Part shown: positions 37,804 through 47,098 of the stretch, one piece after another | Layout of the letters: every line of letters begins with the position of its first letter | Position numbering within the stretch: the first letter of the stretch is position 1 | DNA from: Haloferax marinum | GTDB taxonomy: Archaea; Halobacteriota; Halobacteria; Halobacteriales; Haloferacaceae | Length of the DNA: 64,000 nt | Reading direction: 5' to 3' | Assembly (NCBI RefSeq): GCF_009674625.1 | Contig: NZ_WKJQ01000001.1 | Span: forward strand, 2,604,001 to 2,668,000 | The notes under the pieces: model-generated | The model's database searches: none | What the model was told of the DNA's origin: nothing | Seen by the model: the letters and a program-made list of their open reading frames with translations, nothing else | Program-made: the position numbers and the translations under genes

Positions 37804-38306
37804 GCGTCTACACCGAGTAGTGTCCGTGTAGTCGAGTACTCACGCGGTGCTGAATCAGTCAGCGCAGTATCTGTTCGGCCGAGCAGTGAGGGCGGTAATT
37901 GAGTGAGGAACCCTCCACGACAGCCACGTCGACCGAAACACCAGACGCGATTCGAGACCTCGAATCTGAGGTGTGCGAAGTTTACAAAGAGTATTTTAAA
38001 ATCCACTAGACAATTTCCGCCATTTCCAATGTACTCTGACAGTTGGACGACGGATTTGATGGACTCGAAGACGACTTGTACGAGTGGTGGACACGACGCT
38101 GAGAGGCGATTCGTACTCCTGGGTCGAACGAGATTAGAACCCACCGTGCATGGGGCCACGCAGAGACACGTCTGAAAGTCACTGATTTGGAACTAGTATC
38201 GTCGTGTGGCGTCTAGTCGAGTTCTTCGTTTAATAGCACTATTTTCATCTACTAGTTTAATTAGTCTGGCAGTTTTTATCCGACGGTCCAGCAAAATATT
38301 CGCCAG
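37804..38306. other. 503-bp region with a gene remnant and the island's left edge
   Basis: At 38043-38102 a short frame, LDDGFDGLEDDLYEWWTRR ending TGA, looks like a true C terminus but is preceded at once by a stop. From about 38200 the DNA becomes AT-rich and the REase promoter (TTTTTATC, 38273-38280) lies at the end. No complete gene. Confidence 0.4.
38273..38280 (+). promoter_or_regulatory. TATA box for the putative restriction endonuclease gene
   Basis: TTTTTATC centred about 30 nt before ATG 38307. Confidence 0.55.
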
Positions 38307-39470
38307 ATGGAACCGGTTTGGAGTCGTTCCGATTTAGGGAGGTATTTGGAATCGATTGTCAACGAAGACGACATCGAAGAACAACTCATTCAGGAGTCGA
38401 GATGGAAAATCTCCTACCGCGAGTCGCAACTGGAACGGCGAGGGCTTCTCAGGATGCACCGAGAGGCCATGTCGCTGGAGGAAAAGAAGTTGGACTGGGC
38501 CGACTTGGGATTGACCGACCAAGCGAAAGAAACACTCGACAAAAGCGGTGTCGAGGAGACAGAATTACATCGGTTCTTTGCCCACCCCGGAGTTCTCGTC
38601 GAGTCCCCAGGACTGTTCCACTATTACCGCACTCTAGCTGGCGTGTCAGAAAACCGTCTGCGAGATATGAAAACCGTGAGACCAGCGGTTCGAAATCTGA
38701 CCGGTTCGACTAAATCGCCAGAAGTCGACGACCCGACGAGGCGACTCTGTCGGTATTTCAACTCACTAATTAGTACGTGGGCGTCTGGTATTACAGACGG
38801 AGAGCCGAAACAGCGTGCTCTAACTAGTGCACTCCTCACCGAGGGTGCCGCCATAGAAGGTTCCTCACGGAATGCTGGAGGGAAAAAAGCGGTCGTCAAC
38901 GTTGCCTCTGTGATCGTAGCGGACCTACACGAACACGACCGCCTGGATGCGTTCGTAGTGAAGCAGACCTCGAGTGATGATTTCGACCGAGTCTCTGCAG
39001 CAGAGCTTGGCGAGTCGTATCCATTGTCAGACCTCTCGGGTGCGTACGATGTCGATGCCATCTACGCCAAAAATGGAGGGAAGGTGAGCTTCTCTGAACC
39101 GGATATGATCGTAGAATCACCGAGTGGTGTAACCGGCTATGGGGAGATCAAAGACCGCAAAGACATCAGTAATCAGTGGGAAGGCTGGTTACCTCTCATA
39201 AGGAGTAAACTGGTCGATTTCAAATCACGGAACTCCTCAGCCAAGCGCATGGTTCTCCAACCTGTGTTCACTGAGCGAATGATTGATGGTGAGCGTGGGA
39301 GCGACGCAGAAGACGTAGGTGTGAGAGGCTTCATCGACGAAGACTTGCTTGACGTCCCATTTAACATCAGCAAAATTCTCGCTGATGAGGATTCTCGTGA
39401 GTTCTTCGGCGACTATATCAGGTCACTTCTGGGCTACTCAGTCGAGGTTCTAACTGTACCAAGCACGTAG
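38307..39470 (+). CDS. Putative type II restriction endonuclease (PD-(D/E)xK)
   Basis: 387 residues. Candidate catalytic core is PD at 265-266 and EIK at 280-282 (EPDMIVESPSGVTGYGEIKD), followed by KDISNQWEGWLPLI, a pattern seen in some type II enzymes of the XcyI sort; I assign the name only loosely. HYYRTLAGVSENRLRDM (about 105-121) is a second recognisable helix seen in several REases. It ends 1 bp before the C5 methyltransferase gene's stop on the opposite strand (convergent). Recognition sequence unknown. Codon use is less GC-biased than neighbours (for example ATT, TTT, AAA), which suggests transfer. Confidence 0.7.
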   Translation: MEPVWSRSDLGRYLESIVNEDDIEEQLIQESRWKISYRESQLERRGLLRMHREAMSLEEKKLDWADLGLTDQAKETLDKSGVEETELHRFFAHPGVLVESPGLFHYYRTLAGVSENRLRDMKTVRPAVRNLTGSTKSPEVDDPTRRLCRYFNSLISTWASGITDGEPKQRALTSALLTEGAAIEGSSRNAGGKKAVVNVASVIVADLHEHDRLDAFVVKQTSSDDFDRVSAAELGESYPLSDLSGAYDVDAIYAKNGGKVSFSEPDMIVESPSGVTGYGEIKDRKDISNQWEGWLPLIRSKLVDFKSRNSSAKRMVLQPVFTERMIDGERGSDAEDVGVRGFIDEDLLDVPFNISKILADEDSREFFGDYIRSLLGYSVEVLTVPST

Positions 39471-39471
39471 C

Positions 39472-40590
39472 CTATAGCGACTCAAACGTCATTTGACGTG
39501 TTCCTTTCTCGCGGTTTGGGGCGAGTTCACGGAGTTTACTCGCGATAGCCTCGGCCAATTTTGGGGGCACTGCATTTCCGTTTTGTTCGTACCAGCTCAC
39601 GAATGGACCCTCAAAGTTCCACCAATCCGGGAACGATTGAAGACGTGCAGCCTCTCGAACGGTGATATTCCGGTCCTGTTCGGGGTGAACGTACCTACCA
39701 CACGACGGAGTACTGGACTTCCTCGTGATTGTGCCAGATGGTCGGTCCCAATGCATTCGACCATAGGTGTCACAGAAGGAACCCATATTGTCGTTTCTCG
39801 CTCGCTTCTTCATCGAATCGAGCCAATACTCTTCTTGATGGGGTTCAGGAATGTCCATCCACGACCCACCGTCGTTAGGGATATGGCCTAACATATTGAT
39901 GATTCTTTGAGTGTGGTTTGGTGCGCGGTGCATCGGGTCTGACGGGTGAGTCTCGCCTGCCTCCACCGGCGGAAGGTCGACGATCGCGTCACGAACGGTT
40001 TGGTGGTTCTCGACCGTTGGAGCGGGAAGTTCGACTTTTCGTCCTTCTTTTCTCGCAACGATAATCGCCCGATTCCGTCGCTGGGGAACCCCGAAATCTG
40101 CGGCGTTGAGAACGTCGAACCTCACTAAGTATCCCGCACGCTTCAAAATCTCGTATGTGCGGTCCCAGTATTTCTCCTTGGAGCCACGAACCAACTCTGG
40201 AACGTTTTCCATGACGAAAAACTCCGGTTCCATCTCCACCATCAACTCCGCACTTAGCGACACCAACGTGTTTCGCTCATCGTGTTCGATGTTGTGCTTG
40301 TTACGGTGCTGACTGAACCCTTGGCAAGGGGCACAAGAAATCAGTACGTCGAGTTCACCCCGTTCGACACCGAACTCGTCGAGCAGATCTTCGGCATCGA
40401 ATTCAGTGATGTCACCAACGACCGGTTCGATACCGATGTTACTCTCGTATGTCTTGGCCGCTTTCTTATTCTTGTCTAGCGCACCGACGCACTGGAAACC
40501 CGCCTCTTCGAATCCCAAACTCATCCCTCCTGCACCCGAGAAGAGGTCTGCGTACAACAAGTCTTCAGTAGATTCGGTGTCCCGTTCCAT
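39472..40590 (-). CDS. dcm: DNA (cytosine-5) methyltransferase
   Basis: Modifies cytosine at C5, presumably to protect sites from the neighbouring endonuclease. Motif I ADLFSGAGGMSLGFEEAG, motif IV CAPCQGFSQHR (catalytic Cys), motif VI FFVMENVPEL, motif VIII FGVPQRRNRAIIV, IX/X RLQSFPDWW and QNGNAVPPKLAEAIA are all present. ATG 40590 (MERDTESTEDLLYADLFSG, 372 residues) is preferred to 40620 because the TATA-like CTTATAAG at 40623-40630 would lie only 3 nt before the latter. The variable region between VIII and IX carries the target recognition, not predicted. Its C terminus converges with the REase gene. Confidence 0.94.
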   Translation of the reverse strand: MERDTESTEDLLYADLFSGAGGMSLGFEEAGFQCVGALDKNKKAAKTYESNIGIEPVVGDITEFDAEDLLDEFGVERGELDVLISCAPCQGFSQHRNKHNIEHDERNTLVSLSAELMVEMEPEFFVMENVPELVRGSKEKYWDRTYEILKRAGYLVRFDVLNAADFGVPQRRNRAIIVARKEGRKVELPAPTVENHQTVRDAIVDLPPVEAGETHPSDPMHRAPNHTQRIINMLGHIPNDGGSWMDIPEPHQEEYWLDSMKKRARNDNMGSFCDTYGRMHWDRPSGTITRKSSTPSCGRYVHPEQDRNITVREAARLQSFPDWWNFEGPFVSWYEQNGNAVPPKLAEAIASKLRELAPNREKGTRQMTFESL

Positions 40591-40622
40591 CGTATCCTTG
40601 GCAGAATCTACGTGCGTCATCG

Positions 40623-40630
40623 CTTATAAG
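40623..40630 (-). promoter_or_regulatory. TATA box for the methyltransferase gene
   Basis: CTTATAAG (palindromic) on the minus strand; with a start ~26 nt on it gives a ~10-nt leader before ATG 40590. Confidence 0.5.
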
Positions 40631-40730
40631 ACTCGGTAACGTTTCTTCCCGGTCGTTTTGAAGCCATGGTACTTTTCAAACGCATTAGTCTACAAAGACT
40701 TTCAAGTTCTTCAACTGTAGAATCACGTCG

Positions 40731-40736
40731 TATAAA
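40731..40736 (+). promoter_or_regulatory. TATA box for the AbrB-like gene
   Basis: TATAAA centred ~27 nt before ATG 40761: leaderless promoter, divergent from the methyltransferase promoter ~100 bp away. Confidence 0.6.
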
Positions 40737-40760
40737 CCATATCCTATCGCAGAGTCCATC

Positions 40761-40937
40761 ATGAGCAAATACGTCCTGAACGTGACTACTGTCCAACAGG
40801 GACACAAAATGCAACTAGTAAAAGAAGTACGAGAGATATGGGGTGAAGAGCGGACTAAACCGGGGGAGAAAATTGTGTTTTACGAAGATGACGATGGCAA
40901 TATCATTATCGAGCCAGCAGGTAGACCGGAAGACTAG
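40761..40937 (+). CDS. AbrB/SpoVT-type DNA-binding protein, probable regulator of the restriction-modification genes
   Basis: 58 residues, beginning MSKYVLNVTTVQQGHKMQLV; then KEVREIWGEERTKPGEK and IVFYEDDDGNIIIEPAG. This is the swapped-hairpin AbrB fold: a first strand/turn (VTTVQQGHKMQ), a central helix KEVREIW, a KPGEK turn and a final strand pair (IVFYED, NIIIEPA), as in SpoVT/AbrB and MazE-type antitoxin N termini. No toxin gene is adjacent, so a regulator of the divergent methyltransferase is the best reading. It is shorter than 60 residues and so easy to miss. Confidence 0.8.
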   Translation: MSKYVLNVTTVQQGHKMQLVKEVREIWGEERTKPGEKIVFYEDDDGNIIIEPAGRPED

Positions 40938-41419
40938 GTATCTCCTGTCTCCCCCACTCACGAGTACGATTACTATCGAACGTCTCGGGACGTCTAAGAT
41001 GAATACAGAGCACGTCTGGCTCGATCAACGCGGCTCTGGAGGAGGGTACAATATGACTGTCGCGCACGAACTCGACCGAGATATTTCGAGACAGTTTCTC
41101 AACATCAAGCGGTGGCGGAGAGTTTCGAACGAAACATTCGAGAAGTTCAACTGAGCCTCCAAGCGTTCAAATGGACCTCCACACCCGCAAGACGCTCTTC
41201 GAGTCGTTCAGGGGGAGTTCGGCGCCAGAACCAACATCCGCGATGCATCTTTTCGACGACTGTACGCACTAAATCTGAGCGGTCGTCGATTTCGGGTCTT
41301 CTCTGCAAAGCCATCCCAATCTTCTTTTTGTCCCTCAGAAACTACGACGTGTATGCGCACAATCGTCGAACAGTCGTTGAACAAGTACGATAATCCCATC
41401 CACATGGTATGCACACGAT
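40938..41419. other. 482-bp region with one weak small frame
   Basis: An ATG at 40999 opens a 51-codon frame to 41154 (MNTEHVWLDQRGSGGGYNMT...), mildly acidic then basic, with no known motif. The rest to 41419 is without a credible gene; rfcL's promoter lies in AT-richer DNA around 41380-41400. Confidence 0.4.
40999..41154 (+). CDS. Possible 51-residue protein, weak
   Basis: ATG 40999 to TGA 41152-41154; starts MNTEHVWLDQRGSGGGYN and ends KRWRRVSNETFEKFN. Could be a remnant within the island or non-coding. Only start/stop and composition support it. Confidence 0.25.
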   Translation: MNTEHVWLDQRGSGGGYNMTVAHELDRDISRQFLNIKRWRRVSNETFEKFN

Positions 41420-42868
41420 ATGACTGATTGGACGGAGAAGTACCGCCCATCGACGCTCTCGGAGGTGCGCGGGAACGACAAGGCCCGTGACGCCCTCGCA
41501 AAGTGGGCCAAGACGTGGGACGACCACCGCGAGGCAGTCGTCGTCTACGGGAGTCCGGGCATCGGAAAGACCTCCGCCGCCCACGCACTCGCCGCAGACA
41601 TGGGGTGGGAGACGGTCGAGTTGAACGCCTCGGACCAGCGGACCGGTGACGTCATCGAGCGGTTCGCCGGCCGCGCGGCGAAGAACGCCACGCTTTCTGG
41701 GTCTTCGACTGGAACCTCGACCCGGCAGTTGGTCATCCTCGACGAAGCGGACAACATCCACGGCAACTACGACCGCGGCGGGTCGAGCGCCGTGACGAAA
41801 CTCGTCAAGTCGTCGAGCCAACCCATCGTCCTCATCGCCAACGACTTCTACGACATGAGCCGTGGCCTGCGGAACGCCTGCCGCGAAATCGAGTTCAGAG
41901 ACGTCTCCTCACGCTCTATCGTACCCGTCCTCCGCGACATCTGTCGGAAGGAGGGACTGGAGTTCGAATCGGACGCGCTCAAACAGATCGCCGACATGAA
42001 CAGCGGCGACCTTCGGTCGGCCGTCAACGACCTGCAGGCCATCGCCGAAGGCCGAGACCGTATCACCAAAGAAGACGTGGTCATGGGCGACCGCGACCGC
42101 TCTGTCGGGCTCTTCGAGTTCCTCGACGCCGTCCTCAAAGAGAAGTCGGCCCAGGAGTCGCTCTACACCGCCTACGACGTCGACGAGACACCCGACGACC
42201 TCACCAAGTGGATAGAGGACAAGGTGTCGCTCGTCTACGAACCGGACGAACTCGCTCGTGCCTACGAGTTCCTCGCCAACGCCGACAAGTGGCTCGGTCG
42301 GGTTCGCGCCACGCAGAACTACTCCTACTGGCGCTACGCGACAGACAACCTCGCTGCCGGTGTCGCTGCCTCCCGTGACCGGACACGCGGCGGTTGGACA
42401 CGCTACGGTGGCGCACCGTACCGGTCGACGCGGAACAAGACGCGCGACACCGTGGTTCGAAAGATTGCAGAGAACGGCGGGTTCAGCATGGCGACGGCCC
42501 GGCGCGAAGTCCTCCCGTATCTCTCGGCGCTGACGCACCACTGTAAACCGCGCGAACTGACCGTCGCGATGACGGCCTACTACGAGTTCGACGAATCGCA
42601 CGTCTCCTTCGTCACCGGAAGCGGCGAGACGACGAACAAGGTCCAGTCTATCGTCGAAGACGCGGACGAACTTCGCGAGGAACTCGTCGAAGAACACGCT
42701 GGCGGCGCGTTCGCCGGGATGGAGAACGTCGAGATGGCCGACGGCGACGTGAGCGACGGCGCGTCCGACGACGTTCTCGACAGAGACACCGACGCCGACG
42801 ACGCCACTCCGACCGAAGACGAGTCGGAGACCGACGACGGGCAAGCCGGGCTGTCTGACTTCTTCTGA
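41420..42868 (+). CDS. rfcL: Replication factor C large subunit
   Basis: Clamp loader subunit that opens PCNA at primer-template junctions. 482 residues. Walker A is GSPGIGKTSAAHALA, Walker B VILDEADNIHGN; sensor 1 and the Box VIII arrangement are seen around SSQPIVLIANDFYD and NSGDLRSAVNDLQ. The C terminus is acidic and ends QAGLSDFF, a PIP box that binds PCNA. Length and domain order fit archaeal RfcL; the small subunit gene is not in the window. Confidence 0.96.
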   Translation: MTDWTEKYRPSTLSEVRGNDKARDALAKWAKTWDDHREAVVVYGSPGIGKTSAAHALAADMGWETVELNASDQRTGDVIERFAGRAAKNATLSGSSTGTSTRQLVILDEADNIHGNYDRGGSSAVTKLVKSSSQPIVLIANDFYDMSRGLRNACREIEFRDVSSRSIVPVLRDICRKEGLEFESDALKQIADMNSGDLRSAVNDLQAIAEGRDRITKEDVVMGDRDRSVGLFEFLDAVLKEKSAQESLYTAYDVDETPDDLTKWIEDKVSLVYEPDELARAYEFLANADKWLGRVRATQNYSYWRYATDNLAAGVAASRDRTRGGWTRYGGAPYRSTRNKTRDTVVRKIAENGGFSMATARREVLPYLSALTHHCKPRELTVAMTAYYEFDESHVSFVTGSGETTNKVQSIVEDADELREELVEEHAGGAFAGMENVEMADGDVSDGASDDVLDRDTDADDATPTEDESETDDGQAGLSDFF

Positions 42869-46789: not shown

Positions 46790-47098
46790 AACAAACCACG
46801 GTAGCACACCCCCATATAACACTTCTTCGGTCTGAGACTCGATTCACGTCGATTTTGGTGAAAATTGCCAACAAACGAGCTGAATGAATAGAAATACCCC
46901 CCATACTCAGAAGATATCCAATATTTAGAATTAGTCTGGTATAATTCTCTAATCATCTCTCCAATTTCTGATTCCTATAAAATTGTGTTGTCACTAGTGG
47001 CTAGAAGTCAGATACCGAGTCAGTGTTCGACGGTCGTGCTCCAGTCGGCGTCGTTGGTGATGTGGTGAGTCAGTCGGCGTCGTTGATGATGTGGCGAG
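46790..47098. other. Intergenic region between amino-acid ABC operon and ctaA
   Basis: AT-rich (46830-46990). Contains the promoter of the ABC binding-protein gene. Its right end (47043-47098) is part of the 29-bp triplicate described separately. No gene. Confidence 0.6.

Follow-up and report, generated by a model that had tools for sequence, protein, structure and literature searches.

A putative CCCGGG restriction-modification island in Haloferax marinum with an AbrB-like protein as candidate controller of the nuclease promoter

Gene content and layout of the island

A stretch of 64,000 nucleotides from the genome of the archaeon Haloferax marinum (contig NZ_WKJQ01000001.1, positions 2,604,001 to 2,668,000; hereafter the window) was analyzed for a three-gene island at 38.2-41.2 kb. 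The island carries a candidate restriction nuclease, a C5-cytosine DNA methyltransferase and a small AbrB-like protein (Table 1). All three open reading frames were found where an earlier sequence-only reading of the window had put them. The same reading placed the AbrB-like gene between the two enzyme genes, which is incorrect. The nuclease and methyltransferase genes lie tail-to-tail, 1 base apart, and the AbrB-like gene stands outside the pair, divergent from the methyltransferase gene. A separate TATA box was confirmed for each gene, and the spacing of the nuclease and AbrB boxes fits leaderless messages. The methyltransferase probably starts at codon 11 of its reading frame, because TTATAA sits just 5' of the first ATG in three genomes and the ortholog of another genome, G172, begins at the inner methionine.

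The island is richer in AT and less biased in codon usage than its surroundings, as had been noticed before. The GC content is about 0.52 in the island and 0.63 around it. At third codon positions, it is 0.56 in the nuclease gene, 0.59 in the methyltransferase gene and 0.48 in the AbrB gene, versus 0.81 for the MFS gene and 0.83 for rfcL, which flank the island; rfcL, encoding the replication factor C large subunit, starts at 41420. The three genes are not chance reading frames; orthologs are found in other haloarchaeal genera, with identities of 61-66% for the nuclease, 74-76% for the methyltransferase and 69-79% for the AbrB-like protein.

Table 1 Genes and regulatory elements of the island, in window coordinates.
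Feature	Position	Strand	Basis
Candidate operator GTTTAATTAGTCTG	38255..38268	+	4 nt 5' of the nuclease TATA box; the three AbrB carriers agree in 12/14 columns
Nuclease TATA box TTTTTAT	38273..38279	+	Sequence; G171 and G328 have it at the corresponding position
Probable XcyI-family restriction endonuclease, 387 aa, PD-(D/E)xK	38307..39470	+	PF09571 profile and ortholog alignment
C5-cytosine DNA methyltransferase	39472..40590 (probable ATG at 40590; reading frame to 40620, 382 aa as reading frame)	-	PF00145, TIGR00675
Methyltransferase TATA box TTATAA	40624..40629	-	Conserved in G000, G171 and G328; as a lone motif not above chance
ATTAGTCTA, possible additional AbrB site; lies between the promoters of the divergent methyltransferase and AbrB genes	40684..40692	+	ATTAGTCTR count
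AbrB gene TATA box TATAAA	40731..40736	+	Sequence
AbrB/MazE-type DNA-binding protein, 58 aa	40761..40937	+	PF04014 and TIGR01439, both sub-threshold

Identity of the nuclease and the methyltransferase

The nuclease matches PF09571 (RE_XcyI) with 23.6 bits (E 3.8e-5), below the cut-off of 25, and its ortholog in G172 scores 37.1 bits, above this cut-off. The PD-(D/E)xK site (EPD...GEIK), with EPD at residues 264-266 and EIK at 280-282, is invariant in four orthologs and is kept as RPD...GEVK in a distant bacterial relative. A structure model of the nuclease was unusable, with a predicted local distance difference test (pLDDT) score of 37. The methyltransferase matches PF00145 with 241 bits (E 2.5e-71, cut-off 22) and also exceeds the cut-off of TIGR00675. 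Its motifs PCQGF, ENVPE and GVPQRR are invariant in the ortholog alignment.

The probable place of the nuclease in the Pfam RE_XcyI family and its predicted site liken the island to the XcyI, Cfr9I and XmaI systems, which act on CCCGGG. M.XcyI, the partner of XcyI, is listed as an N4-cytosine enzyme (PMC8557920), whereas the XcyI-type nuclease of the island is paired with a C5 enzyme. An AbrB-like gene is present here, and no AbrB regulator was found described for the XcyI, Cfr9I and XmaI systems in the papers searched.

Distribution and co-inheritance of the three genes

The nuclease was searched for in 392 genomes sampled across the class and then in further complete family searches, about 450 haloarchaeal genomes altogether. 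It was found in four of the 392 genomes, namely H. marinum (G000), Halorubrum rubrum (G171), G172 and G328, and the further searches added none. A weak fifth match (G194, E 3.8e-4, 97 residues) was left out of the count. A search with the Pfam XcyI model returned exactly the same four genomes. The methyltransferase occurs at high identity in these four of the 392 genomes and adjoins the nuclease gene in each. The two enzymes are encoded by separate, co-inherited genes, as expected of a type II system, and the island is almost certainly a restriction-modification system.

An AbrB ortholog (69-79% identical) was found solely at this locus, in H. marinum, H. rubrum and G328, and is divergent from the methyltransferase gene each time. 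The anticipated recurrence of the AbrB-like gene beside the same methyltransferase is borne out in three of the four carriers, which represent three genera. The trees of the two enzymes are star-like and do not discriminate between gain and loss of the AbrB gene.

A related enzyme pair lies side by side on the bacterial Polymorphobacter plasmid p29334-4 (NZ_CP080244, L049 3415-6280), where the nuclease is 27% and the C5 methyltransferase 46% identical to those of the island. This cassette also encodes a Vsr repair nuclease but lacks an AbrB gene. The enzyme pair is thus old, with AbrB an addition that was observed in haloarchaea alone. The plasmid nuclease is annotated merely as hypothetical. 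Plasmids searched for AbrB gave none, and viral contigs searched for relatives of the nuclease or AbrB gave none. Most of the viral contigs L071-L081 have a pair of neighboring C5 methyltransferase genes, whose products are 36-44% identical to the island enzyme, and no related nuclease.

In the G328 island (L038 12009-13229), next after the AbrB gene come an overlapping gene for an HhH-GPD (MutY/endonuclease III-like) glycosylase and an EVE-like gene. These two genes could plausibly form a repair and reader module for (deaminated) 5-methylcytosine. No remnant of either gene was found 3' of the AbrB gene in the window.

Probable arrival of the island by gene replacement

In three congeners, the interval between a 145-aa membrane gene and rfcL holds about 4 kb of other genes instead of the island. 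These encode a 224-aa membrane protein, a beta-lactamase-family hydrolase and a CPBP-like membrane protein (L066 2985-7432, L067 2611-7280, L069 3477-7392); the names of the first and the third were assigned from the sequence by eye. The locus has thus undergone gene replacement and not simple insertion. The horizontal transfer proposed from base composition is supported, because the composition deviates and local genes were replaced.

Avoidance of CCCGGG in carrier genomes

XcyI-family enzymes cut CCCGGG, and for this reason CCCGGG was counted. The site occurs once in the window versus 14.4 expected, and the loci of system-free genomes are near-normal or mildly reduced. The whole genome of H. 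marinum holds 69 copies versus 585-909 in nine congeners without the system, H. rubrum holds 145 versus 896-1608 in five congeners, and G172 holds 33 versus 143-1816 in four congeners. The depletion relative to congeners is about tenfold in H. marinum and H. rubrum. The reversed control GGGCCC stays in the normal range in both (269 and 618, respectively) and is normal in G328. The CCCGGG/GGGCCC ratio is 0.26 in H. marinum, 0.23 in H. rubrum and 0.55 in G172; it is above 1.4 in 22 of 23 system-free genomes. The system is highly likely to recognize CCCGGG, and action of both predicted enzymes on this site would fit the avoidance. It has very probably been active for a long time in at least two lineages.

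The island could instead be decayed or inactive, and the depletion could come from another cause, such as deamination of methylated cytosines. Deamination of 5-methylcytosine can deplete a site without restriction, and one carrier, G328, shows no depletion. However, the three genes are intact, the catalytic motifs are invariant, and the depletion recurs in independent island-bearing lineages. The deamination products are not clearly raised either, at 1.24 times the expectation for CCTGGG, 0.99 times for CTCGGG and 1.43 times for TCCGGG. Deamination alone is not clearly indicated as the cause, and a decayed island is improbable.

Other sites showed patterns of their own. GATC is strongly avoided in the window (32 seen, 290 expected) and likewise in congener loci; CTCGAG and CCWGG are far more common in the window than in those loci. 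This pattern suggests different sets of restriction systems.

Family of the 58-residue protein

Profile scans of the 58-residue protein gave no helix-turn-helix family, and the only meaningful matches were to AbrB and MazE. The signature G-x-K/R...KEVRE...G..PG...DG...EP is common to this protein and a canonical haloarchaeal AbrB protein (L032), which in turn aligns to Bacillus subtilis AbrB (E 0.033). The AlphaFold model (pLDDT 70) has a strand-helix-strand-strand order that would fit a swapped-hairpin fold. The protein is likely a member of the AbrB family.

Since the top Pfam match is MazE_antitoxin, the island might hold a toxin-antitoxin pair with this protein as its MazE-type antitoxin. 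A conserved toxin neighbor is absent, though: the next gene is folD in H. rubrum and the HhH-GPD glycosylase gene in G328, and in the window no recognizable gene lies between the AbrB gene and rfcL. The protein also consists of the DNA-binding domain only, with no tail for binding a toxin. The toxin-antitoxin assignment is extremely improbable and was rejected for want of a partner toxin.

Small AbrB-type paralogs, about 40% identical to the island protein, lie directly 5' of gcvT-gcvH in 14 loci of various haloarchaea (L009-L033). They are widespread and appear to be conserved regulators of glycine cleavage.

A conserved element at the nuclease promoter

One element, GTTYAATTAGTYTG, GTT(T/C)AATTAGT(C/T)TG, is common to the nuclease promoters of all three AbrB carriers; 12 of its 14 positions are identical, and it always ends 4 nt before the TATA box. 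In 200 shuffled trios, the best common 14-mer had at most 9 identical columns, and none of the 200 reached 12. The core TYAATTAGTYTG occurs once in the 3.48-Mb genome, at the nuclease promoter. G172, which has no AbrB gene, lacks the element, though its nuclease is 63% identical and no more diverged than the others.

The shorter motif ATTAGTCTR occurs 7 times in the genome, and two of the seven copies are in the island. A search for a palindromic operator found none: in neither regulatory region did inverted repeats exceed those of shuffled sequence. The strongest candidate target of AbrB would be the nuclease promoter at 38255-38279 and not the methyltransferase-AbrB intergenic region at 40620-40760. 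The operator core AATTAGTCTG is also present at 46929-46938, where it lies between genes in AT-rich DNA, 5' of a gene for an amino-acid ABC transporter (46822, minus strand).

Proposed control of the nuclease

These genes are read here as a CCCGGG system in which the AbrB-like protein would play the part of a bacterial C protein by acting at the nuclease promoter; a probability of roughly 0.6 is assigned to this reading. The regulator gene would have its own promoter, divergent from that of the methyltransferase gene. As a dimer or tetramer, the regulator would bind the 14-bp element, which lies just 5' of the nuclease promoter's TFB recognition element and overlaps it, and would thus govern how much nuclease is made, or when, compared with the methyltransferase. 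A weaker site may also let it act on its own intergenic region. The gene identities, the co-inheritance, the promoter element and the avoidance of CCCGGG in carriers are read directly from the sequences, whereas binding by AbrB and the sign of control are what we infer. Repression by occluding TFB is slightly favored over activation, because the element overlaps the TFB recognition element; the fixed spacing would also fit activation. AbrB is fairly likely to be the controller of the nuclease promoter.

C-protein type II systems, such as PvuII, Esp1396I, Csp231I and Kpn2I, similarly have a small DNA-binding protein in the island and a conserved element at the system promoter. Their C proteins are helix-turn-helix proteins, whereas the protein here is of AbrB type, has its own promoter and shows no significant palindrome. 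PhaR of Haloferax mediterranei, an AbrB-like protein, is a known repressor whose sites of action are tandem repeats in its promoter (PMC9049629). It resembles the island protein in having an AbrB-like domain and in being a haloarchaeal transcription regulator at a promoter (PMC9049629). A second TTAGT 9 bp upstream in the G328 nuclease promoter recalls the tandem repeats of PhaR. The two differ in their associations: PhaR controls polyester granule genes, and the nearest paralogs of the island protein adjoin gcvT-gcvH.

Several observations weigh against the proposed CCCGGG system and its control by an AbrB-like protein. For the AbrB fold, which the sequence-only reading had proposed, the profile matches hold, but the scores are under the curated cut-offs, both for PF04014, the best Pfam match (20.2 bits, E 5.9e-4, cut-off 24.7), and for TIGR01439 (19 bits, E 8.8e-4, cut-off 28.3). 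A Foldseek search with the model of the 58-residue protein gave nothing significant, with SpoVT at rank 21. Only four instances of the system are available, and in one of them, G172, a phosphoribosyl pyrophosphate synthetase gene starts in the place of the AbrB gene and leaves no room for it. G172 keeps the system all the same, so the AbrB gene is dispensable. G328 shows no avoidance, with 2166 copies of CCCGGG versus 1841-2982 in five congeners; it either acquired the system recently or has it in an inactive state. The GGGCCC control is also low in G172 (60), and the system-free genome G374 has a low CCCGGG count, with a CCCGGG/GGGCCC ratio of 0.73. For these two reasons, the avoidance case is carried mainly by two genomes. 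Autoregulation is weakly supported, because a matrix built from the nuclease sites found no significant full operator in the methyltransferase-AbrB intergenic region (P = 0.39, 0.05 and 0.15).

The system could also be real while the AbrB-like gene regulates itself or host genes, or is a passenger; the promoter element would then be bound by another factor or merely mark a strong promoter. This would agree with the dispensability of AbrB in G172, with the closest paralogs (about 40% identity, in other haloarchaea) lying beside gcvT-gcvH and not restriction genes, and with the G328 AbrB gene leading a row with a glycosylase gene. However, orthologs at 69% identity or more stand solely beside this system, and the element tracks the presence and absence of the AbrB gene, though the four nucleases are about equally diverged. 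An unrelated or passenger role is unlikely. As for the different control logic suggested earlier, the support for control by the AbrB-like protein is circumstantial: it comes from the conserved element at the promoter, which goes together with the AbrB gene, and AbrB is absent in G172.

Significance

No report of AbrB with restriction-modification in haloarchaea was found in the literature, and the words AbrB, C protein and controller do not appear in two archaeal surveys. One paper contains both AbrB and controller protein, the latter just within the title of a cited reference. The comparison suggests that the new features here are an XcyI-type nuclease with a C5 partner and a regulator that is not a helix-turn-helix protein. 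There is a somewhat better than even chance that an AbrB-type protein is a dedicated controller of an archaeal type II system, acting via a 14-bp operator at the TBP/TFB promoter of the nuclease, and an independent archaeal counterpart to the helix-turn-helix C proteins. How archaea stop a newly acquired restriction nuclease from killing the host has hardly been studied. The locus offers a small and concrete test case, with one 58-residue protein, one 14-bp element and one predicted site, CCCGGG.

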